DNA of 42,232 nt from Chloroflexota bacterium (GTDB lineage Bacteria > Chloroflexota > Anaerolineae > Anaerolineales > Villigracilaceae), in NCBI GenBank assembly GCA_016866215.1, contig VGNE01000033.1, positions 1-42,232 on the forward strand, in the 5' to 3' direction. The notes beneath the pieces were generated by a model, which searched no databases, was not told the DNA's origin, and saw only the letters and a list, made by a program, of their open reading frames with translations. Shown one piece after another: positions 7,694 through 21,342 of this stretch (its first letter is position 1; the number at the start of each line of letters is the position of its first letter). The position numbers and the translations under genes are program-made.

Positions 7694-9469
7694 TTATTTA
7701 TCGAGGAAGAGATCGTCGCGCGCCCAAAGGATAATGGTTTCACCGCTCTGCGGCATTTCCCGCAAAGTGATCCAGCGGATCCAATCCCTGGTGAGTGCGG
7801 CGTTCCACAATGGAGTTTGCCGCCAGGTGAAATCCTGTCCGCGGTAGGCGGCGACGAGGATAGGGTCTGTTTGTTGGGGCGTGATCACGAAATACGGGGA
7901 ACTGGAAATATCGAGAGATGCAGCGACGCTTACGGAATGTTCCCGCAAGGCCCACTCAAGCGCAGAAGAATTTATTCCTGTAATCACAACGGGCGCGGAG
8001 AAATCATTTCCGAGACCTAATTCTGAAATTTCACGGACCGTGGCTTGCAACAAGTCTGCCTGCATGGGCATGGATGGAGGCCGCCAAAGCTCTGGATGAG
8101 CCAATCCGCGCAAGCCTGCCGAGCCAAATGTCCCGCCAAGACCAAGCACTCCCAGCACAAGCGCGAGTCCCCACAGGCCGCCGAGCCGGGCCGTGCGAAT
8201 CGACCAGCCTGCGGCAACCAGCAGGAGACTTAATAAAAGCAGGATCAACGCGCCAATCAACAGCGCTAAGCGCATTGTATATTCACGCGAATCCGCAGAA
8301 AGCCAAACCAGTCCTGAAAAATCCAACCACGCAAAGGTCCAGATAAATGCAGTCAGAAGTACAACGCCGATCACTTCGCGGCGCTCTTCGGGGAAGATGG
8401 TAACGCTGCGCCCCAATTCCATTGCGGCCAGTACGCAAAGCGGAATGAGCGCCCAGGCGAGATCACCGATCTGGCGCGAGGGGAGAAATATTGCCAGCAG
8501 AAATGAGACGAGCAGCCAGATGCTTAATGGAATAATTCTGAAACTTCCATTTGCCCAGCCTCGAATGATGGCGATCAATGCCAATAAAACGGCAAGCGGT
8601 TGATATACAAGAAGCGAAAGGAACAACCGGCCTGCGGAGACATCCGAGCTAGTAAGCCATGTCTTGATAAAGGCAGGGATGGAGGCGAGTGCGGCGCTCA
8701 ATCCACCGGGGACAATAAAGAAGAGTGTGCCGGCTGTGATGAAGGTGAGGAGGAAGGGGATGAGGAAAGTTTGGTAATTGGGGATTGGGGGTTGGGGATT
8801 GGGGATTGGACGCTTCGCGTGGAGATTAGAGATTGGAGATTGGTAATCGGTAGTTGTAGAATCGAAGGCGATGGTTTCAAGTTCGGGAGCAGGTTTTGAT
8901 GAGCGGCGGGATTGTAATCCCTGATTAATCGCACATGTAATTCCGAGACCCAACAAGCCGTACCAGATGGAAGGGCCGCTGAGCAGGGCGAGGGCGGCGA
9001 AGAAGCCCCCCAGGCTGGGTTTGTTTTTATTGATGAATGCCCAGAAAAAAATCAAAAATGCGATAGCAAAAATCGGGCTGGCGGCTTGCCTTGATAGCGC
9101 TGTCAGACCTGGGTCGAGGGCAATGAAAAAGGCCAGGATCAAGCTCGGGCGGGGGCGAAGCGTGAGACGTTCGTTAAAAAGCAGTGGCGCAAAAACGAGC
9201 AGGCTTCCAATCAGGGCGGGCATGAGTCGGGCGAGGAAATTTGTCCCGCCGCCGTAGAGGAAGAACAGAACTGAGGTGGATAAAATGTAAAAGGGATGGG
9301 GGCTGAGTGGAGGCTTGGCGCCTTGCGAAATGTGCAGGGCTTGCAGGGCAGGCGCGGCTTCGGCGTCGGTGAGGGGCATGGCGCCAAGCTGGGTCAGGCG
9401 GAGAGCGAGGGCAAGCAGAAACGCGAACGCATACAGCCAGCCCTCATATTTGAAATGTCTGTAGGTCAT
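7694..9469 (-). CDS. GT-C-type membrane protein, TIGR03663-like
   Basis: A 591-residue, highly hydrophobic polytopic protein with an N-terminal region like PF02366/GT39 mannosyltransferases. The first loop after TM1 has acidic residues in PLTDAEAAPAL (D35, E37), where GT-C enzymes keep their catalytic acid. Members of TIGR03663 are known to occur almost only in genomes with, and often next to, DUF2298/Chlor_Arch_YYY proteins; two of those are encoded directly upstream here. A low-complexity loop at about residues 203-233 (SPISNLHAKRPIPNPQPPIP) is read from the GATTGG repeat at 8771-8860. It likely transfers sugar from a lipid carrier on the outer membrane face; the acceptor is unknown. Confidence 0.7.
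   Translation of the reverse strand: MTYRHFKYEGWLYAFAFLLALALRLTQLGAMPLTDAEAAPALQALHISQGAKPPLSPHPFYILSTSVLFFLYGGGTNFLARLMPALIGSLLVFAPLLFNERLTLRPRPSLILAFFIALDPGLTALSRQAASPIFAIAFLIFFWAFINKNKPSLGGFFAALALLSGPSIWYGLLGLGITCAINQGLQSRRSSKPAPELETIAFDSTTTDYQSPISNLHAKRPIPNPQPPIPNYQTFLIPFLLTFITAGTLFFIVPGGLSAALASIPAFIKTWLTSSDVSAGRLFLSLLVYQPLAVLLALIAIIRGWANGSFRIIPLSIWLLVSFLLAIFLPSRQIGDLAWALIPLCVLAAMELGRSVTIFPEERREVIGVVLLTAFIWTFAWLDFSGLVWLSADSREYTMRLALLIGALILLLLSLLLVAAGWSIRTARLGGLWGLALVLGVLGLGGTFGSAGLRGLAHPELWRPPSMPMQADLLQATVREISELGLGNDFSAPVVITGINSSALEWALREHSVSVAASLDISSSPYFVITPQQTDPILVAAYRGQDFTWRQTPLWNAALTRDWIRWITLREMPQSGETIILWARDDLFLDK
8771..8860. repeat. GGGGATTGG short-period tandem repeat inside coding sequence
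   Basis: Seven-to-eight-base units of the GGGGATTGG / GAGATTGG type are repeated with variation, split by GACGCTTCGCGTG. The tract is in frame in the TIGR03663-like gene and encodes the repeated IPNP/ISNL loop. Confidence 0.7.
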
Positions 9470-9490
9470 GGAGGTAATTGTATCAAAGAG

Positions 9491-12010
9491 TTACGGCGCT
9501 TCGTAAATGACCACACTGCCCTGCTGAAAAACAGGTTTGAGATATGACTGGAATTTCTCTTCATTTACTGACATGGACACGCGCTCAAGCGTGCCGATGT
9601 AAATGTAGCGAATATTGTATTGCTTAATGATGAGTTGGGCTTCCTCCCAGCGGACAGTGGTGTAGAGTTTTTTGATGTCTTCGCGGCGGGAGCCTTGCGG
9701 TTCGTAAGTTCCGCGCCACTGCGCTTCATGACCGGGCCAGCCCAGCACGGTCTGCAGGCCAGTCCACATGGAGATGCGGGCATAGCCGCTGTATCCATCT
9801 CCGATGGCTTCGGCAACAACTCCATTTGGCACGGTGAGCAGGAAATCTATCGCGGCGGCTTCATCAGGATTTTCGCGTTTGACGCGCTCAAAGTCATCGA
9901 GAGTGTAGCCGAAGACCGGTTTGAAGTTGTTGGTTTTTGTCAGCAAGCCAAAGGTTGGATACAACAAGCCTGAAAAAATCACGAGGCCGATCAATACACG
10001 GAAGATAATATTCTTTGCGCCGCGCAAGTTTTGAAGCAGGTATGCAACTGCGAAAGCGGCAACGAGACCCCACAACATCCACGCCTGGTAGTAGAACTTG
10101 AAAACCGTGTTGATGCGATAACCGAATTGATCGCGCAGAAAGACAAACTCAGGGGCGAGGATGAGGAGGGCACCGAGGGTGATGAGGAGGAGAACGAATT
10201 GGTTTGCGATTTTCAATTTACGATTTGAGATTGATGCGTGATGCGTGATGCGTGATGCGTAATTATGGAAAAGGAAGGCGAGGGCTGGGATAAGGATTGC
10301 CCCCAACGTGATGAGGCTTCCAATGTAAGCCAGTCTTCGCAGGGAGGTTGCGCGGACAAATTGAGAGGCGGTCATGCCTTGCGAGGCGAGAAAGTTTATG
10401 ACAATATCCTTTTCGAGAAAAGAAATGACCCAGCCGATAAAGAAGGTGAGAAGGAAAAGGAGGAAAGGTAAGCCCAGCCCGAGTGAATAGCCAAGTTTCC
10501 AGTTGGGTTTACCTCTGGAGTCGGATAGTTCGCTGTTCGCTTGTGCAGCAGCAAGCTGCTGTACTCCAGAGGAAAGATGAATAAGATAGGCAAAGATGGG
10601 GATGAGCAGAGTACCCCACATCACCCATAAATGAATGCCGCGCGTGGGATACATGAAGTTCGGCAAAATACCACCCGCCTGTGATGAGAATCCTAAATAG
10701 AACGGGAAATAAAGTAAAACAGAAAGAATACCGAGCAGCAAGCCAAGCAGGAACAGGTCTTCGAGTCGATTCCAATTCCAGCCATCATCATTTGCGCGCC
10801 AGATGACGTAGGAAGCAACGATCAACGTAGCGGCGACGAGGATATCCCAGGTGTTGAGAAAGGCCAGTCCGCCGATGAGCAGGGCGGAGAATAAAAAGCC
10901 CGCATAACTGACGCGCAACCGTGCGCCGAACAATTCAATGCATCCACGCCAGCCGCCGAGGAAGAGATTCAATGCCGCAGAAATCGCAAGCAAGCCAAAG
11001 GGAATCGCCAGCACATGTGGATGCAAGTCACCGAGCAGAAAGGAGAAGAAGGGAAACTCATCGATCACTTCGCGGAAACTGCCCGTCATGTCATAATCCT
11101 GTATGACACGCGAGGCGCGCCACCACCACAAATAACGATCGGGGATCCAGCCAAACGGCTGCATGGGCGGCTGGGAAAGTTCCTTCATATCCATCCATGA
11201 CCAAAAGGAACTCGTGAATTCGCCGGTGATCGGGTCTTTTATCCAGAATAACCCGCGGCGATGCAGGACTTCAAGCAGGGCCTCAAAGTTTGAGATGAGC
11301 AATAGAAAGAGCGGGCCGAGGAGGGCGAGACCGTGGACGGTGGATGGTGGACGGTTGTTTTCATCATGGTCTATGGTCTGTCGTTTGTGGTCTGCTCTTG
11401 AAAGTAAACTATATAAAATCCCATACGAGCCAATTGCGCCGAGGGCAAAGATAAGCGCGGTCATCAGGTTGTGGGCGGTGCTTCCATTGGCTGCAGAGAT
11501 GCGCGCCAGCATGGCGGTCATTACATAACCGAAGTAATAATAGGAAATGGCGTAACCTGAAAGCCAGGGATCCTGCGGAGGAAAAACTGGCGAACGCAAA
11601 ATGCCGTTGATGAAAGCCAGTTCCATCGGCTTTTCGGTGCTGGTCAGTTCGGGGTTGGCGGAGCGGACGAAAGCAAGGAAGGCGAATGCGGCGAAGAATA
11701 ATATTTCGGTGGTGAGGATGAGGCGAGAATGGGTGCGGAGATAATTGGTAAACAGGGATTTGAGACTGGAGATTGACCACACGCTGAGAGCGATGAGGAT
11801 TGCGAGCGCAAGCAGAATTCCTCCAAGGTCATTTTGTGCAATGCCAAGAGAGGCTAACAGCCAGAAGAGATATCCCCAGATCAACAGGCCTGCAGTGCGC
11901 GCGAGGGTGTACCCTCGATCTGTCAGCGCAGGGAATAAATAAAAGGCCAGCGGAAAGGTCAGCCAGCCGAGCAGGGTGAGGATGATGTACCAGGTGAAAA
12001 ATGCAGTCAT
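9491..12010 (-). CDS. DUF2298 (Chlor_Arch_YYY, TIGR03662-like) membrane protein
   Basis: An 839-residue polytopic membrane protein, in the 700-900 range usual for single-domain members. The hallmark tyrosine motif is SYYYFG (156-161), preceded by FPPQDPWLSGYAI; further shared blocks are FLLGDLHPHVLAIP, RINTVFKFYYQAWML and the C-terminal IYIGTLERVS. All align with the C-terminal half of the 1657-residue protein, so the two are paralogues. Function is unknown; large GT-C-like topology and context suggest a glycosyltransferase-like role in the envelope. Three repeat-derived loops are in frame: about residues 203-227, 479-500 and 582-601. The start at ATG 12010 sits beside a CAGTGATCAGTGA repeat with no Shine-Dalgarno sequence. 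Confidence 0.85.
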   Translation of the reverse strand: MTAFFTWYIILTLLGWLTFPLAFYLFPALTDRGYTLARTAGLLIWGYLFWLLASLGIAQNDLGGILLALAILIALSVWSISSLKSLFTNYLRTHSRLILTTEILFFAAFAFLAFVRSANPELTSTEKPMELAFINGILRSPVFPPQDPWLSGYAISYYYFGYVMTAMLARISAANGSTAHNLMTALIFALGAIGSYGILYSLLSRADHKRQTIDHDENNRPPSTVHGLALLGPLFLLLISNFEALLEVLHRRGLFWIKDPITGEFTSSFWSWMDMKELSQPPMQPFGWIPDRYLWWWRASRVIQDYDMTGSFREVIDEFPFFSFLLGDLHPHVLAIPFGLLAISAALNLFLGGWRGCIELFGARLRVSYAGFLFSALLIGGLAFLNTWDILVAATLIVASYVIWRANDDGWNWNRLEDLFLLGLLLGILSVLLYFPFYLGFSSQAGGILPNFMYPTRGIHLWVMWGTLLIPIFAYLIHLSSGVQQLAAAQANSELSDSRGKPNWKLGYSLGLGLPFLLFLLTFFIGWVISFLEKDIVINFLASQGMTASQFVRATSLRRLAYIGSLITLGAILIPALAFLFHNYASRITHHASISNRKLKIANQFVLLLITLGALLILAPEFVFLRDQFGYRINTVFKFYYQAWMLWGLVAAFAVAYLLQNLRGAKNIIFRVLIGLVIFSGLLYPTFGLLTKTNNFKPVFGYTLDDFERVKRENPDEAAAIDFLLTVPNGVVAEAIGDGYSGYARISMWTGLQTVLGWPGHEAQWRGTYEPQGSRREDIKKLYTTVRWEEAQLIIKQYNIRYIYIGTLERVSMSVNEEKFQSYLKPVFQQGSVVIYEAP
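10206..10265. repeat. GATGCGTGATGCGT repeat inside DUF2298 gene
   Basis: Four GATGCGT units follow a CGATTTTCAATTTACGATTTG segment. The tract is in frame and encodes a soluble loop (ASRITHHASISNRKLKIAN). It belongs to the TACGTAAT/ATGCGTAAT family also found at 12438, 16071, 16731 and 19681. Confidence 0.65.
10512..10572. repeat. Palindromic element CCTCTGGAGT...ACTCCAGAGG inside DUF2298 gene
   Basis: CCTCTGGAGT (10512-10521) and ACTCCAGAGG (10563-10572) are perfect inverted repeats around a centre containing CAGCAGCAAGCTGCTG. It is in frame, encoding a hydrophilic Q/A/S-rich loop between membrane helices. Confidence 0.6.
11330..11400. repeat. GGTGGACGGT / TGGTCTATGGTCTG repeat inside DUF2298 gene
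   Basis: Two short-period tracts, GTGGACGGTGGATGGTGGACGG and TGGTCTATGGTCTGTCG, lie in frame and encode a charged loop (about residues 203-227) after a predicted helix. Confidence 0.6.
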
Positions 12011-12062
12011 CAGTGACCAGTTGCCAGTAATTAATAATTAGTGATCAGTTATCGGTGATCGG
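12005..12062. repeat. CAGTGATCAGTGA-type repeat between DUF2298 and DUF952 genes
   Basis: CATCAGTGACCAGTTGCC and GTGATCAGTTATCGGTGATC are degenerate units of the same word; a second tract of this type is inside the 1657-residue gene at 16537-16591. It fills the gap and touches the DUF952 3' end. Confidence 0.55.
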
Positions 12063-12426
12063 AAGGCGGTAATGCCGGAGGGAGGGAAAATGTTCCTTGT
12101 GCAGAATCAGGCTCAAAGCGCAGCACGGAGGCGACTGCGGTTAAGTTGATGGGACCGAAGATATGCGGAAATAAATCAGATTCGGAAATGCCCGCGGCCG
12201 GAGGTCCCGCTGGCGCTTCCCACTTAAGCTCGGGCTTGAGTTTTGCTTCGTCGAGCATCAGCAGTACGAGGTCAGTGCGCCCGCGATAAAAAGCATTCGC
12301 CACATGGAGAACTTGTTTTTCAGTTGAGCAGTGAATGAAGCCTTCGGTTTCCAAGCTTGGCGCAAGATATTCGCCGCGTGTTTGGGATTCAAGCCATTCT
12401 TGTTTTGAGGTAATGTGCAGGATCAA
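12049..12426 (-). CDS. DUF952 domain protein
   Basis: A small soluble protein of the DUF952 family. The visible family features are LHITSKQEW at the start, FIHCSTEKQV, the LVLLMLDEAKL strand and FPHIFGPINLTAV near the end. Biochemical function of the family is not established. I chose the TTG at 12424-12426 as start, because AAGGAG (12433-12438) stands 6 bases upstream and the protein then opens as in relatives. The longer open frame to 12489 would add residues read from a TACGTAAT repeat. The gene sits between the two DUF2298 genes in the same direction; no functional link is evident. Confidence 0.8.
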   Translation of the reverse strand: MILHITSKQEWLESQTRGEYLAPSLETEGFIHCSTEKQVLHVANAFYRGRTDLVLLMLDEAKLKPELKWEAPAGPPAAGISESDLFPHIFGPINLTAVASVLRFEPDSAQGTFSLPPALPPSDHR

Positions 12427-12437
12427 GGTTGTCTCCT

Positions 12438-12467
12438 TACGAATTACGTAATACGTAATTCGTAAAT
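12438..12467. repeat. TACGTAATACGTAATTCGTA repeat, intergenic
   Basis: Palindromic-unit repeat between the 1657-residue gene and the DUF952 gene. Same family as 10206, 16071, 16731 and 19681. Confidence 0.65.
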
Positions 12468-12472
12468 AAATT

Positions 12473-15400
12473 CTACGGGATGGCTTCATAAATTACCGTA
12501 TTTTCATCGCGATAGACTGCGTTCCAATATTTGCCGTTGTACTCTTCGAATTTTGCAAAGCCGTCTGTTTCAAGGTCAATCGGCGGGTAGACATTTCGCT
12601 CAAGTTGGCCGACGACGATATATTTCACGTCAAATTTTTTCAGGAAATTCAAGGCTTGCTGGATGTCTGGCGTGGCATAAAAGAGACCGACCTGATTGAC
12701 TCGCTCTTGAACACTTGGTGCAAAAATACCGCGCTGCTGGCGTTGATGCCAATTCCAACCTACGACGCCAGGCAGGCCCGTATAAATCGAAAAGCGAGTG
12801 CACCAGCGGTATTCGGTGCAGTTGGCTTCGACGATGACCGGCGAACCTATTACATTATCCTGCATCCAGCGGATGGTGCGATAATCCTCGCTCAATTCCA
12901 TGACCTTGCCATCCCAAAGCTCAGAGTAATTCATGAAGGTCATGCTGTCCAAAGTACGCGGGGCGGGCGGAGTCAGACGGTCACTGATCTTGTCGCTGGT
13001 GGCGGTGAGGGTGAACATAAATGCGCCCATCAATAAAATGGTAACGCCGGATTGGAAGAGGGTGCGCCAGCGCATCCGCCATAATGGAAAGACATTCAAC
13101 AACCAGCCAAAGGATGCGGCGGCGCTGACGGCCAGCAGCATCCACGCCTGCAAATATAACTTGAAGACTGTGTTCATGCGGCCAATATCGCCAACGAGCA
13201 CAACCACTTCGACTGCCAGAGTAAGCGTCAATGCCGTGCCGATCATCAACAACACAGCGCGTTTGACATCGGGCATGTCCGGACGCAGGATGAGAATCCC
13301 TGCCCAGGCGGCGAGAGGCAATGCCAGCCAGCCAATGCGGATGCCCTCCACGGCAAAGAAGACCAGCAGGGCAATCAACAAGGCCAGCGAAACTTCCAAG
13401 GCCACCACATAATCACGTAGTTTGCCTAAACGCGAAACCGGCGTGGAGGCCATCCATTCGCGCGTCTCCCACGTCAGCCATGCCACAATGATAAAGAGGA
13501 ACAAAGCCCATTGCGTGAGGTAGGAAGAGATCGGTGTGTGCGAACCCTTCCACGGGTCTATCGCGCCGTAACTCTGTCCATACCAATAGGTGAATGGCGC
13601 ATACAAAAGCGAACCGAGGATATATAAAAAGGCAACTGCACTAACTGCAACCAATGCACGCCCAAGCCAACCCCCATCCCCGGCCCTTCCCCCAAAAAGG
13701 GGAAGGGAGACAACGGAATTACGATACAGGGTATAAGCCACCGCAATCGCAGCTAGCGGGAAGTATGTGTACAAATCCCATGTGTTCGTTGGCTTCAATG
13801 CGCCGATCATCAAAGCGCCGATGCCAAACACCGCAAACCATTCGGAGCGTGTCAACTGTGCACGAGATTTAACAAATGACACCGACCATGCAATGATAAA
13901 CAAGGTGATCGGCATCACGAGCATGTGCGCGTGCATATCGCTGTATAGGAAAGTGAATAGGGGAAACTCCGTGATCGGCTCGACATCATTTGGCGCGGGG
14001 ATGACACGGCTTGGAAACCAATACCAGTCACCGGGGCCAATGGGGAGGGATGCCCCGCTAAACGACATGAACAATCCTTGAATTGCCCAAATCCATTTTT
14101 GGAAAAAGATCGTATCCACTGGCACAAGCCCGCCTGGCGCGGCGATGCGCTGGAAACTATTGAAGAGCAAGCGAATCGTGCCGAGGTTGCCCAGCAAAAC
14201 GGTCATGAAAGAAGCGGCGAGACCGGAGATCAAAGGGACGTTGGACGTTGAACCCTTCGACAGGCTCAGGGCAGGCTGTTCAACGTTCAACGTTTTATCC
14301 TCAACAATTGAATACCCAATCGCGAATGCGCCAACGGCGATCAACGCAAACCAGGTCGGCAAAATAAAGTTGTAGGCGATCGAAGGCACAATGCCAAGCA
14401 ATTTTACCGGCGTGCCGGCCAGCACAAAACCGTAATAGTAATAATTGATATACCCGCCCGCATACCAGGGGTCATAAGGCGGGAAACTTTCGCTCTTCAA
14501 AACCGCGTTGAAATACGAAAAATCCATCGGCCGCTCGCCGCCCTTGGCTGGATGCCACATATCCGAATTGCCGAGGCGGATCAGCAGATCGATCAGGAAG
14601 AAGACGAGGAAAAGAATCTCCACCATGACGAAGAATCTGCGGTTGGCATTCCACTCCTCTTTGAACTGGTCTCTGCGCTTCACCCACAAGCCGAAGCCTG
14701 CCACAGCGACAATGACAAACGCCGCGCTGATGGAGACCCGCGTGTACGGCAGGCCCACCGAACCGCCCATCCATGCGATCCATGCCAGCAGAACCAAGCC
14801 GGCAATCCTGCCCAATGGATAGGCATATTGTTTTAATCCCGGTAATGCAAGCCGCGCAATGGGATAGGCGAAGAGACCGAGAACGAAAATAAATGAATAC
14901 CAAAGTAAAACGCCAACGATAGGGTATTTATTTTGAATCCAATCATAATCAAATAATTCAGACCATGTCCCGCCTGTGCGCTGTTGGGACAGGCGGGTCC
15001 CGGGCAGCATCAAATCCTTGTAATCGCTGGCCTGCCTGGGCGTGAAACTGACCACATTCGTCAAATCCACTGCGCTGAGAATGCCTTGCACTTTGGCTGA
15101 ATTGAAATCATTTGTTTTTTTGAAGATCAACACTTTGGGATGGTCGTAAAAAGTAAAAGCCTCTTCTGCGGCTTGATCGTTGATGACCAGTGAGCCGAAT
15201 GTTGGATATGATTCAAAGACTTGCACCAATTCAAAGCCAAGATTGCCTTCATATTGTCCGGGCTGCGCCACGCGGTAACATTCGATGATATTTTCGTTAG
15301 CAGGACAGCCAAGCAATTCACGATAATACAAAGTCGTCAGCGGATATCTTTCGGGCAGACGTGTGATCTGCGCGTACTGATGATTGGTGGGGATGATAAT

Positions 15401-17446
15401 GTAATCAGCCAGCGAGAGCGTATCCATAAAGCGGGTTAATTTATTCGCGTCGTCCGGCCAGTACACTTGCAGGATCAAGTCACCGCGATAGATACCGCCA
15501 AAGGGATCATAATTATCAATGCGGAAGGGCAGTCCCCAGTCGTAATCGGTTTCATTGGCGAGGTTGGAGCCGCTGATGGTAAGTCCGTTTCCCAATGTTT
15601 CCATCTTCAAATTGTATAACTGACCTTTGATGACGGGCACAACGCGGTCAAAGGTCAAAGTGAGCGAGAGGCCGCGCGGATCGTTTGTCAGCGTGGGATC
15701 AAGCAATTCGGAGGCGCGCGCAAGCACACGGTCCGGTTCGGAGGCGGAAGCAAGAGTCAGTACGATGGGAGCAGAGATTGAGTCGCGTGCGTGTCCAAGT
15801 GAGACCTCAGAAATTTGTCCATCACGGTTTGGGAAAAATGTCAGGTTGTAAGGTGCGTCCGTTGTGATGACCAGTTCCGCTGGCATGGGTAAAGGCTGGC
15901 TGTAAATGCCTTGATCTGTAGTTTCAATCCGCAGGTTGACGGGACCCGGCGCGTTTTGATATATCCAGCGCGAAGCCGCCATGCGGGTTTCGTCTCGCAG
16001 GTAAATGCTTTGAAAGGCAAAAGCCCAAATGACGGTGAGAATGAGGACTATCGTGCCAATGAAAGCCGTTAAATTACGTATTACGTAATACGTATTACGT
16101 AATTTGAACATTTGTGGCAGCTCGAAGATCACCCACGCCGCCATCATTGCCAACAGCGGATAGATCGGCAATTGATACCGCATGGTCGGGTTGAATTGAA
16201 GCGACTGCCAGATGAAGTAGAACGCAGTCCAGCCCCATAGCAGCAAATGCTTGTATTCGCCTTTGAAGATGCGCCAGCCCATCAGCAGAAAGCCGGCCCA
16301 GGCGAGAATGCCAAGCGGAAGCCCAAGCCCCCAAATGGTTAAATTTGTAAATGAATATAAATGTGTACGCCGCGCCCATTGTAAATTCCAGGGCAGGTCG
16401 GCTTCGCCGGAGGCCTGCGCCCGCACTTCGCTTATGTTCGCAACCCACTGTGGATTAAGTCCTAAACCGTCAAATGCGTAGGGCTGAAAGATGCGGAAGG
16501 AGATGAGGGTTGCAAGTCCGCCCGCGATGAGAAAGGCAGTGATCAGTGACCAGTGATCCCCTACGGGGATGATGTCAGTGGTCACTGATTTGTGGCGGCC
16601 ATACAAAAAATAGCGGACAGCAAAAGCGCCCGGCAAGGCAATTGCCAACACCACAGCATTGATCTTGGATGCCATCGCCATGCCGAGGGCAATACCAAAG
16701 CCGATGGAGAGGAGGAAGAGGGGATTCTTGATAATGCGTGATACGTAATGCGTGTTGCGTAATTCGTAATTCGCAATTTGGGAATCGGTGATTTTCTGCT
16801 CACCACTTTCTACTCTCCGTTCACTATTCTCTACTCTCTGTTCTCTAATCTCTACTCCCTGCCCCACTATCTTCACCGCAAACGCCAGCGCCAAAAACAT
16901 GAACAGGTTCGTGAAGAGGTCTGTCGTAAAGAAATGGGATTGTTGAATCTGCATCACAGTCAGCGAGGAGAATGTTGCGGCAAACAAACCCACCTTGCGC
17001 CCATACAAACCTGAAACAATTAAATAAAGCAAAAAAATGGTGAGTAAATCTGCCAGTGCCGATACCTGCCGCGCAAAGAATTTTGAATTACCAAGATCAT
17101 CGTTACCCGTCAACTCCATGCCATAGCGGATCAAAGTAATTGGCAAGTTGCCATATACAAAGAATGCATTTCCACGGTTATGCGGGTTGAGTGTGGATGT
17201 GTTGGTATCGAAATATTCGCCAAGGCTTAACCAATGTTTCTGCTCGTCCGGGCAAAGATCCACCGGGATGGACGAGTCATCACAAGCCTGTGCGCGCAGA
17301 TTATCTACAACGCCCGTCAAAAACAACTCGTCAGGGTGCTGGTGGTAGCCCTCGCCCCAATTGAAACCTGCCAATCGCAAATATCCCGCCATCAGCAGGA
17401 CGAGGATAAATAACAGATCATACAACCATGAGCGTTTTTCGTTCAA
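12473..17446 (-). CDS. GT-C glycosyltransferase / DUF2298 fusion membrane protein
   Basis: A 1657-residue polytopic protein with two halves. Residues 1 to about 840 resemble GT39/PMT_2 enzymes: HPDELF (D39, E40) follows TM1, and a large extracytoplasmic region precedes the junction. From about 850 it is a DUF2298/Chlor_Arch_YYY domain with FPPYDPWYAGGYINYYYYG (near residue 1000), FLYSDMHAHMLVMP, RMNTVFKLYLQAWML and IVVGQLER, all matching the 839-residue neighbour. A GT-C enzyme fused to the unknown domain suggests they act on one substrate. The start is TTG at 17444-17446 with GAGGAAGAG just upstream. Six repeat tracts are read in frame (about residues 194-238, 285-303, 447-458, 814-826, 1050-1070, 1246-1259). 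Confidence 0.85.
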   Translation of the reverse strand: MNEKRSWLYDLLFILVLLMAGYLRLAGFNWGEGYHQHPDELFLTGVVDNLRAQACDDSSIPVDLCPDEQKHWLSLGEYFDTNTSTLNPHNRGNAFFVYGNLPITLIRYGMELTGNDDLGNSKFFARQVSALADLLTIFLLYLIVSGLYGRKVGLFAATFSSLTVMQIQQSHFFTTDLFTNLFMFLALAFAVKIVGQGVEIREQRVENSERRVESGEQKITDSQIANYELRNTHYVSRIIKNPLFLLSIGFGIALGMAMASKINAVVLAIALPGAFAVRYFLYGRHKSVTTDIIPVGDHWSLITAFLIAGGLATLISFRIFQPYAFDGLGLNPQWVANISEVRAQASGEADLPWNLQWARRTHLYSFTNLTIWGLGLPLGILAWAGFLLMGWRIFKGEYKHLLLWGWTAFYFIWQSLQFNPTMRYQLPIYPLLAMMAAWVIFELPQMFKLRNTYYVIRNLTAFIGTIVLILTVIWAFAFQSIYLRDETRMAASRWIYQNAPGPVNLRIETTDQGIYSQPLPMPAELVITTDAPYNLTFFPNRDGQISEVSLGHARDSISAPIVLTLASASEPDRVLARASELLDPTLTNDPRGLSLTLTFDRVVPVIKGQLYNLKMETLGNGLTISGSNLANETDYDWGLPFRIDNYDPFGGIYRGDLILQVYWPDDANKLTRFMDTLSLADYIIIPTNHQYAQITRLPERYPLTTLYYRELLGCPANENIIECYRVAQPGQYEGNLGFELVQVFESYPTFGSLVINDQAAEEAFTFYDHPKVLIFKKTNDFNSAKVQGILSAVDLTNVVSFTPRQASDYKDLMLPGTRLSQQRTGGTWSELFDYDWIQNKYPIVGVLLWYSFIFVLGLFAYPIARLALPGLKQYAYPLGRIAGLVLLAWIAWMGGSVGLPYTRVSISAAFVIVAVAGFGLWVKRRDQFKEEWNANRRFFVMVEILFLVFFLIDLLIRLGNSDMWHPAKGGERPMDFSYFNAVLKSESFPPYDPWYAGGYINYYYYGFVLAGTPVKLLGIVPSIAYNFILPTWFALIAVGAFAIGYSIVEDKTLNVEQPALSLSKGSTSNVPLISGLAASFMTVLLGNLGTIRLLFNSFQRIAAPGGLVPVDTIFFQKWIWAIQGLFMSFSGASLPIGPGDWYWFPSRVIPAPNDVEPITEFPLFTFLYSDMHAHMLVMPITLFIIAWSVSFVKSRAQLTRSEWFAVFGIGALMIGALKPTNTWDLYTYFPLAAIAVAYTLYRNSVVSLPLFGGRAGDGGWLGRALVAVSAVAFLYILGSLLYAPFTYWYGQSYGAIDPWKGSHTPISSYLTQWALFLFIIVAWLTWETREWMASTPVSRLGKLRDYVVALEVSLALLIALLVFFAVEGIRIGWLALPLAAWAGILILRPDMPDVKRAVLLMIGTALTLTLAVEVVVLVGDIGRMNTVFKLYLQAWMLLAVSAAASFGWLLNVFPLWRMRWRTLFQSGVTILLMGAFMFTLTATSDKISDRLTPPAPRTLDSMTFMNYSELWDGKVMELSEDYRTIRWMQDNVIGSPVIVEANCTEYRWCTRFSIYTGLPGVVGWNWHQRQQRGIFAPSVQERVNQVGLFYATPDIQQALNFLKKFDVKYIVVGQLERNVYPPIDLETDGFAKFEEYNGKYWNAVYRDENTVIYEAIP
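13669..13709. repeat. GGGTGAGGG/CCCTCTCCC-type repeat, copy 2 (in coding sequence)
   Basis: CCCTTCCCCC-aaaa-GGGGAAGGG with a leading CCCCCATCCCC is in frame in the 1657-residue gene and encodes SLPLFGGRAGDGGWLG. Confidence 0.6.
14235..14297. repeat. Composite repeat: ACGTTGAACGTT arms around CTTCGACAGGCTCAG
   Basis: GACGTTGGACGTTGAA and GTTCAACGTTCAACGTT are arms of an inverted repeat around CCCTTCGACAGGCTCAGGG (14253-14271). The whole block is in frame in the 1657-residue gene (DKTLNVEQPALSLSKGSTSN). It looks like one repeat family nested inside another. Confidence 0.65.
14967..15003. repeat. Palindrome GTCCCGCCTGT...ACAGGCGGGTCCC in coding sequence
   Basis: GTCCCGCCTGT and ACAGGCGGG pair around GCGCTGTTGGG; encoded in frame as LPGTRLSQQRTGGTW in the extracytoplasmic part of the fusion protein. 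Confidence 0.5.
16071..16105. repeat. TACGTATTACGTAATACGTA repeat in coding sequence
   Basis: Near-perfect palindromic tract of TACGTA/ATTACG words, in frame in the 1657-residue gene (LRNTYYVIRNL). Confidence 0.65.
16537..16591. repeat. CAGTGATCAGTGACCAGTGATC repeat in coding sequence
   Basis: CAGTGATCAGTGACCAGTG and GTCAGTGGTCACTGATT form a large inverted repeat around CCCCTACGGGG. In frame in the 1657-residue gene (SVTTDIIPVGDHWSLITAF). Confidence 0.65.
16731..16865. repeat. ATGCGTAAT repeat followed by CTACTCTCTGTTCTC repeat in coding sequence
   Basis: 16731-16790 is made of GATACGTAATGCGTG and AATTCGTAATTCGC words; 16795-16865 is made of pyrimidine-rich words such as TCTACTCTCCGTTCAC and TCTCTACTCCC. 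Both are in frame and give a highly charged loop (EIREQRVENSERRVESGEQK, then ANYELRNTHYVSR) between membrane helices of the 1657-residue protein. Confidence 0.7.
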
Positions 17447-20452: not shown

Positions 20453-20458
20453 GGATTA

Positions 20459-20548
20459 GGTACACAGGTAAACAAGTAGACAGGTAGACAGGTACACAAG
20501 TACACAGGTACACATGGATCACGTGTTTACTTGTCTACCTGTCTACAT
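20459..20548. repeat. GTAGACAGGTACACAGG / TGTCTACCTGTCTAC inverted repeat, intergenic
   Basis: About nine GTACACAG or GTAGACAG units run on the left and TTGTCTACCTGTCTAC on the right, around ATGGATCACGTG. The arrays are inverted to each other and fill the spacer between the two methyltransferase genes. The unit is about 8-9 bases and there are no unique spacers, so it is not a CRISPR. Confidence 0.75.
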
Positions 20549-20550
20549 TT

Positions 20551-21342
20551 CTATTTCTTTCTCGCTATATAAAAAGTGAAAGTCCCATTTTCCACCGGCT
20601 CAGGTGAGGCGTATTTGCTAAGATATTTTTCCGTCAATCCCAGATTCCATTTTGTGCGTGAGATGATCCATTTGCCTGTCAAAAGACGCGCAATTACAGT
20701 TGGGACGCCGAAATAATGTCCCCATTCTAACACGCGCATGGAGGCGGGTGAAAAATAATTCCATGAGCGTTCCAATGTAAAACCTGCGCGTTCAAGACGT
20801 GCCTGCCATATATTGGGTTCATCTGCATGAGAAACACGCGAAATTTTTCTAAACCATTCGGTGTAGCCTTTGCCTAAAAATCTTGAAATGGATAACTCGC
20901 TTAAGTAACGAGTATTGGGCACGCAGAAATAGAAAGGCGCATTTGGTTTGAGCACCCGCGCAGTTTCTGCGAGGACAGTGTCGATCTGTGGGATATGTTC
21001 CAGCACCGAGTTGCTGAATCCGCTGGCGAAATAATTGGATGGAAAAGGGGAAAGCGCGCCATCGGCCTCCACCAGCGATTTATATCCGCCAAATTTCTTC
21101 GCTTCGTGAATGGGACCATGCCAGGGGTCGAGCCCCACGTCCAGTTTGTTATCAAATGTCAAAGAGGCAAAGTGACCATCGCCACAGCCCACGTCATATA
21201 CAGGCGCAGGCATGGGCAGGTCTTGATAATAGGAACTCTCTATCGCGCGAAGAAAGGCGCGAAAGTAGGGCAGGTCACGCAGTTGGAGAAAGAGGAAGTC
21301 TTTTGATTGACGATTGACGGTTGACGATTGACGATTGCTCAT
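20551..21342 (-). CDS. Class I SAM-dependent methyltransferase
   Basis: A 263-residue methyltransferase. SAM motif I is VYDVGCGDGHF (49-58), with DVGLDPW as the acidic strand, NSVLEHIP in motif II/III and VLKPNAPFYFCVPN as the following strand. Its start ATGA overlaps the stop of the GT4 gene by four bases, a sign of coupled translation. The first 14 residues (MSNRQSSTVNRQSK) are read from a GATTGACGATTGACGG repeat, so the true domain begins near residue 15. With GT4 and the next methyltransferase it probably modifies a glycan or glycolipid; specificity is unknown. Confidence 0.83.
   Translation of the reverse strand: MSNRQSSTVNRQSKDFLFLQLRDLPYFRAFLRAIESSYYQDLPMPAPVYDVGCGDGHFASLTFDNKLDVGLDPWHGPIHEAKKFGGYKSLVEADGALSPFPSNYFASGFSNSVLEHIPQIDTVLAETARVLKPNAPFYFCVPNTRYLSELSISRFLGKGYTEWFRKISRVSHADEPNIWQARLERAGFTLERSWNYFSPASMRVLEWGHYFGVPTVIARLLTGKWIISRTKWNLGLTEKYLSKYASPEPVENGTFTFYIARKK
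21303..21340. repeat. GATTGACGATTGACGG tandem repeat at gene start
   Basis: Four to five GATTGAC(G) units cover the first codons of the methyltransferase and reach the stop of the GT4 gene. Confidence 0.65.

Follow-up and report, generated by a model that had tools for sequence, protein, structure and literature searches.

Tandem repeats with a seven-nucleotide unit are known from several bacterial groups, among them the STRR of Calothrix and Nostoc, GGGNATC in Xanthomonas and TAACTGA in Beggiatoaceae (PMC4692102, PMC4679880; like all papers named here, cited from excerpts, with further background in those of PMC6749651, PMC8700078 and PMC5524665). A second group of relatives centers on S23 (PF05635, 23S_rRNA_IVP), a four-helix bundle with the family structures 2gsc and 2rld and, as far as we know, no transposase domain. 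Intervening sequences (IVS) in 23S rRNA are excised by RNase III. Pairs of MITEs and autonomous transposons comprise gene-bearing copies with inverted ends and gene-less copies, and their protein and ends covary. In the excerpts available, the IVS of Coxiella and Leptospira have an S23 ORF between complementary ends, a patchy distribution and presumed horizontal transfer (PMC4990558), and PF05635 is described as homologous to Avd of diversity-generating retroelements (PMC10053308). The proposed origin of the cyanobacterial, Xanthomonas and giant sulfur bacteria heptamers is slippage, and a role of S23 outside rRNA is left unsettled in these sources.

The arrays described here resemble STRR/LSSR in their period of 7, variable word and unit number, mostly intergenic position, 7-nt strain-specific steps and occasional inverted pairs (PMC4692102, PMC4679880, excerpts). 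Unlike STRR/LSSR, they also lie in frame in membrane-protein loops, comprise many words per genome and are tied to S23—a link absent from the STRR descriptions in the same excerpts. The organized S23 elements share the S23 ORF between complementary ends with the 23S rRNA IVS, but this arrangement was not found for the S23-less tracts of the window; unlike the IVS, the elements lie outside rRNA at intergenic or operon sites (all S23 sites examined are between or in protein genes, none in 23S rRNA), and their arms are arrays whose word differs between copies. With MITE/transposon pairs they share gene-bearing and gene-less copies, inverted ends and protein–end covariation, differing in that arrays instead of fixed repeats form the ends and that target duplication is not established. 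A difference from retroelement Avd is that RVT_1 is present in 31 of 57 genus genomes, absent from 26 and does not clearly track the arrays. A link between S23/PF05635 and heptamer arrays was not found in the titles and abstract openings that our literature search covered, a scope that most subscription papers fall outside.

Tandem arrays of period 7

The window, that is, the whole stretch of 42,232 nucleotides analyzed, corresponds to contig C33 of a draft genome that totals 3.74 Mb in 128 contigs. An earlier note on this DNA had described in-frame repeat tracts in three adjacent membrane-protein genes, built on words of 6–12 bases. About ten such tracts are indeed present in these genes (Table 1); their unit is 7 bases. 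Strict arrays were defined by 13 of 14 matches at lag p, with Markov shuffles as the null. The window holds 7 strict lag-7 arrays versus 0 in 20 shuffles, and 5 of the 7 are inside genes A, B and D. A genome sample of 442,232 bp yielded 16 arrays at lag 7 (7 of them in the 42-kb window) and 15 at lag 14, with 0 expected, while other lags were scarce (8: 3, 15: 4, 16: 5, 21: 3, 24: 2). Seven and multiples of it are the leading periods among strict tandem repeats in these 442 kb, and 7-nt tandem units occur far beyond chance, as in STRR/LSSR. The loop tracts form a single class of tandem arrays, with a period of 7 and words that vary, and the class occurs genome-wide. The neighboring PMT_2 gene, by comparison, had no array in 81 kb of orthologues, so that a specialty of GT-C/DUF2298 proteins is not supported. 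The TACGTAAT tract lies downstream of the stop of the large gene, in the leader of a DUF952 ORF.

Table 1. Genes and repeat tracts in the window
Feature	Position	Strand	Basis or remark
Gene A, GT-C-like membrane protein	7694..9469	-	Weak match to TIGR03663, below cut-off
Gene B, DUF2298 / Chlor_Arch_YYY	9491..12010	-	Carries loops B2 and B3
Gene D, PMT_2 + DUF2298 fusion	12473..17446	-	Carries loops D1 to D4
Loop A1, arrays CCCCAAT and CTCCAAT (8776–8810, 8820–8844)	8776..8844	-	Tandem scan and orthologue comparison
Loop B3, array ATCACGC	10229..10264	-	Tandem scan and orthologue comparison
Loop B2, array CACCGTC (11329–11355), then CATAGAC-like units (~11366–11395)	11329..11395	-	Second part by eye
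Array TACGTAA (TACGTAAT tract)	12437..12467	.	Leader of DUF952 ORF, outside membrane-protein genes
Loop D4, inverted AACGTTG units separated by a short spacer	14236..14294	-	Inversion by eye
Loop D3, array ATTACGT, nearly self-inverted	16072..16103	-	Identical 30 bases in genome G014
Loop D2, array CAGTGAT with inverted partner	16536..16585	-	Inverted score clear
Loop D1, drifting units CGTAATT to TCTACTC (16732–16780, ~16809–16857)	16732..16857	-	Tandem scan and orthologues
S23-less hairpin, 8-base units	20458..20553	.	Word equals arms of S23 element of same genome on contig C27
Array GATTGAC	21304..21338	.	Resembles arms of S23 element of same genome on contig C19

Inverted partners, which the earlier note took to be frequent, are the exception. 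Among 39 relaxed arrays of the genome sample, 6 have one above the 95% null and 33 are not hairpins, which rules out the hairpin as the general form of solitary arrays; in the loops, the partner is clear in D2 and was seen by eye in D4.

Same loops, different words

The locus was taken from 40 further genomes of the genus. Relaxed arrays of gene B fall almost entirely into four 30-residue bins (51 of 52 arrays, 36 genomes; null mean 16.5), and the same holds for 48 of 60 arrays of gene D (37 genomes; null mean 13.4). All 7 arrays of gene A (24 genomes) lie in the top bins as well, but their clustering is not beyond the null. Orthologues of the neighboring PMT_2 gene contained 0 arrays in 81 kb and those of cmk 0 in 15 kb. 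Among the 47 arrays of the same-loop scan of the genus, one is a run of N and not an array.

As the earlier note supposed, different words occupy the same loci: 118 arrays in 8 loops of the genus fall into 68 word classes, ruling out a small fixed dictionary of words. The mean word difference (of 7 positions, G040/G041 pairs excluded) is 2.68 for the same loop in different genomes; different loops give 3.02 and random words 3.17. Same-loop words are thus slightly closer than those of different loops, which points to some inheritance and mostly replacement; words at different loops of one genome are barely closer (2.92 vs. 3.02, p = 0.037). The proposal that the tracts always encode hydrophilic loops holds on average and not in every case. 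Array-encoded segments (n = 125, genus) have a mean Kyte–Doolittle value of −0.64 with 78% below 0, compared with +0.44 for the remaining protein, and in them K+R (12.5%) exceed D+E (6.7%). By eye, similar peptides are also encoded in some loops where no array was detected.

Two close genomes, G040 and G041, are 97.5% identical over 196 kb and share five unchanged arrays. Another array, located within a T-box leader, differs between the two by exactly one 7-base unit, the one clear case of a 7-nt unit-number step between close relatives, and a further array sits where an inserted S23 gene ends. Invariant tracts with a conserved protein, named beforehand as the outcome that would speak against the earlier note, were not seen across the genus. 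The gained or lost unit lies in L075 3468–3769, an Rfam T-box leader. The S23 insertion at an array end was the reason for taking up PF05635.

S23 genes between inverted arrays

PF05635 is found in 55 of 57 genus genomes (0–16 copies), and the S23 gene often lies between inverted arrays of one word. With an inverted-arm score of at least 13.5 defining an armed locus, 95 of 142 S23 loci are armed and 47 fall below the threshold; these are pooled sets that include orthologous sites, so the loci are not fully independent, and the phyla set stems from the best 80 of 567 matches. Among 168 control genes with intergenic flanks (simple ORF calls, this genus only), 0 reached 13.5 and none scored above 12.0. 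The window's own genome has arms of at least 13.5 at 12 of its 13 S23 genes, the remaining one scoring 13.0. No S23 gene was found in the window, searched by tblastn, or in the 41 orthologous stretches.

In the first genus set (30 loci) the median inverted score was 15.5 versus 8.5 for shifted centers, which were used because orthologous neighborhoods spoiled the mixed-pair control (95% point 71.7). A second, later genus set had 17 of 20 loci above the highest of 39 shifted controls. The association extends over many phyla, as judged from 77 loci among the best 80 of 567 matches (3 were left out for short flanks), found by one motif and hence biased to S23 near the query. Here the inverted score was 15.5 versus 9.0, the lag-7 self-match was 0.323 near S23 and 0.255 far from it, and lags 7 and 14 were prominent near S23 and not farther off. 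The 99% mixed-pair line was passed by 31 of these 77 loci and by 0 of 141 shifted controls; 6 of the 77 also passed with flanks compared directly and not inverted. S23 occurs in 39 of 72,556 plasmid records, 33 of them cyanobacterial by manual count. Twelve of the 39 (cyanobacterial, Riemerella) were examined: arms scored at least 15 in 8, the lag-7 match was 0.423 near and 0.264 far, and 3 of 24 shifted controls reached 13.5. Overall, the S23–array association is strong.

Arm period and polarity were read from 85 loci, the 95 armed ones minus 10 that include all 8 armed plasmid loci. In 69 of the 85 the best period is 7, the remainder fitting 8 or 9 best. The 5′ arm has AG > CT in 73 and AG < CT in 5. 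S23 itself is under purifying selection, with 1179 synonymous versus 133 non-synonymous single codon changes in 28 pairs.

S23 number and array density

Across 39 genus genomes (41 minus 2 with under 5 kb of GT-C sequence), the number of S23 genes correlates with array density in GT-C genes on S23-free stretches (rho 0.79). Contrasts on a fusion-protein tree, which leaves out 2 of 37 tips, gave r 0.56 (permutation p = 0.00025, same sign in 27 of 31); Spearman on the same contrasts was not significant (0.26, p = 0.135). Transposases (Y1_Tnp, rho 0.10 with array density) and reverse transcriptases (RVT_1, weak at rho 0.28, p = 0.09) did not clearly predict density and were set aside as drivers, and density was predicted neither by contig number (rho 0.20) nor by GC (0.02).

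Outside the genus but within the phylum, 19 stretches of 13 S23-bearing genomes held 47 arrays in 369 kb, and 20 stretches of 16 S23-free genomes held 4 in 317 kb, close to the 2.4 that shuffles predict and thus about what chance would give. Per-genome tests gave p = 0.008 and 0.0016, a contrast that lineage may confound since the S23-free genomes are more distant relatives. The G129 stretch was left out of this sample, and the genome of L286, a stretch that is all N, is one of the 16 for the Fisher test but does not enter the rank test. No dose response was seen among the 13 S23-bearing genomes.

Covariation of protein and word

For 48 elements from many phyla, S23 similarity correlates with arm-word similarity (rho 0.38, p = 0.0005). 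The correlation is 0.33 (p = 0.001) with GC, taxon and arm composition removed, and 0.405 in different-taxon pairs alone (911 pairs, taxon labels set by hand from record titles). It is weaker within the genus (0.20, p = 0.018) and between the genus and other phyla (0.13, p = 0.044). The word measure presupposes period 7, although for 16 of the 85 arms a period of 8 or 9 fits best. Whole-element transfer and co-evolution both predict such covariation; in either case the protein and its arms move together.

Arms also match places without S23. The S23 arms of the window's own genome gave 1.6 matches per arm to S23-less places in the 442 kb (6 of 13 arms, 20 merged matches), arms of other genus genomes gave 0.74 (10 of 35 arms), those of other phyla 0.17 (7 of 48) and shuffled arms 0. 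Own and congener arms did not differ clearly against the solitary arrays of this genome (p = 0.065 and 0.10), which gives no support to the idea that these arrays derive solely from S23 words of their own genome.

The pheS–pheT junction

One junction occurs both empty and filled. In 29 readable genomes (1 of 30 pheT loci lacks pheS and was left out), the pheS–pheT junction is empty in 4 (10–11 bp), holds S23-less inserts of 62–110 bp in 12, several of them hairpins by eye, and S23 elements of 545–618 bp with at least three word families in 13. For all 13 elements, the match between the two arms exceeds the median cross-species pair, but it is the best match of all for only 3. Two other S23 sites have a conserved word; there, arms match those of other species as well as they match their own partner. 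Units of about 9 bases (CACAAAGGA-like) were seen in some of the S23-less pheS–pheT inserts (L294–L323), where other species carry S23 elements.

Origin of the arrays

The tracts probably, though by a modest degree of confidence, belong to a class of variable-word arrays (period 7, sometimes 8–9) of which the S23 element is the most organized form. Such an element consists of an array, the S23 gene and an inverted array of the same word, IVS-like but outside rRNA, with S23-less arrays of the same kind scattered through S23-carrying genomes. Arrays would persist in intergenic DNA and in those loops of large membrane proteins that tolerate them; there, words may turn over by unit slippage, substitution and re-insertion, leaving related species with different words in the same loop. 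We infer that S23 recognizes the arms and makes arrays spread or persist, either by itself or together with a polymerase, nuclease or reverse transcriptase of the host; copy-number dependence, arm polarity and covariation favor such a causal part. Since most solitary arrays are not hairpins and no S23 was seen near the loops, their descent from S23 elements would be indirect. Other results also speak against this reading: the S23 loci below the arm threshold, the lack of a clear advantage of own over congener arms, the Spearman value on contrasts, the missing dose response outside the genus, RNA duplex energies close to those of controls and the equal cross-species arm matches at two conserved sites. 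The earlier note is thus partly supported: its common mechanism gains a candidate partner in S23, but no flanking signature was found at the loops.

The main competitor, unlikely in our estimate but deserving of attention, is plain slippage, in which replication duplicates 7-base units anywhere, these are kept where tolerated, and S23 only settles in the resulting hairpins. Among long simple repeats, heptamers rank first in abundance in most genomes, and polymerase slippage has been proposed as the cause (PMC4679880, PMC4692102, excerpts); both the exact 7-base change between close genomes and the lack of an inverted partner in most solitary arrays agree with it. Slippage alone, however, predicts no dependence on S23 number, neither arm polarity nor protein–word covariation, and leaves the near absence of arrays in the sampled S23-free genomes unpredicted. 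We consider it improbable that S23 acts as a regulator or chaperone that binds an RNA stem and is retained with it in operons, the arrays being selected as stems and the scattered ones by-products. Positions between operon genes (cas6/cas4, nrd, pheS/pheT), purifying selection on S23 codons and the relation to Avd, a retroelement accessory (PMC10053308, excerpt), are in keeping with this role, but the same site is empty in 4 and S23-less in 12 of 29 genomes, and one S23 lies inside a pglX gene. The RNA duplex energy of the arms is also unremarkable: 16 of 68 S23 loci fall below the 5% point of the controls with medians close, which rules it out as a discriminator of S23 loci.

Selection of the loop peptides for protein function, with DNA periodicity as a consequence, was already disfavored and is very improbable. 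The loops are hydrophilic, richer in K+R than D+E and the same across the genus, as it would have them, but a period of 7 is no multiple of the codon length of 3, both the words and their peptides vary freely, and arrays also occur outside genes. An assembly artifact, likewise disfavored already, has next to no credit: the source is a 128-contig draft, but arrays recur in the same loops of many genomes including the single-contig G041 and G047, arms are present in complete plasmids, and contig number does not predict density.

Extending the S23-based reading beyond this locus, S23 genes may define a bacteria-wide family of mobile or self-maintaining elements with no known transposase, whose small four-helix-bundle protein recognizes its own 7-base inverted arrays and co-evolves with the word, gene-less arrays spread by this system being a main source of bacterial heptamer repeats, including those in membrane-protein loops. 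This extension is tentative, and we stop short of calling it probable. For the heptamers ascribed to slippage and for S23 outside rRNA alike, the S23–heptamer link supplies a partner open to experiment, on one side a gene for deletion and on the other a sequence for binding. If true, a class of peptide inserts in bacterial proteins would be explained as translated arrays.

Observations at individual sites

S23 also lies between operon genes such as the nrd genes, and between cas6 and cas4 on two cyanobacterial plasmids (L244, L248). The link to arrays offers another reading of the 18 S23-family genes described in cas loci (PMC3936711, excerpt). In L118 (1330–1934), an S23 element sits inside pglX, with the BREX_1_MTaseX profile matched as far as position 1008 on one side and from 1018 on the other; the pglX frame is open across the element, and S23 is in another frame. 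Nesting in an open host frame is not a rule, this being one case among 95 armed loci.

A word of the CCTTCGACAGGCTCAGG type, a probable dispersed repeat, lies at 14255–14277, between both AACGTTG arms of loop D4. A GGTCTCGATACGG...CTACTCGACCACC palindrome enclosed by two heptamer arrays (L010 13315–13429) recurs in the sample, by eye. The stretch coding for DYWSLIT (16536–16560), where a membrane helix begins, is retained across much of the genus, again by eye and also where no array is detected, as if the repeat had turned into a part of the protein.
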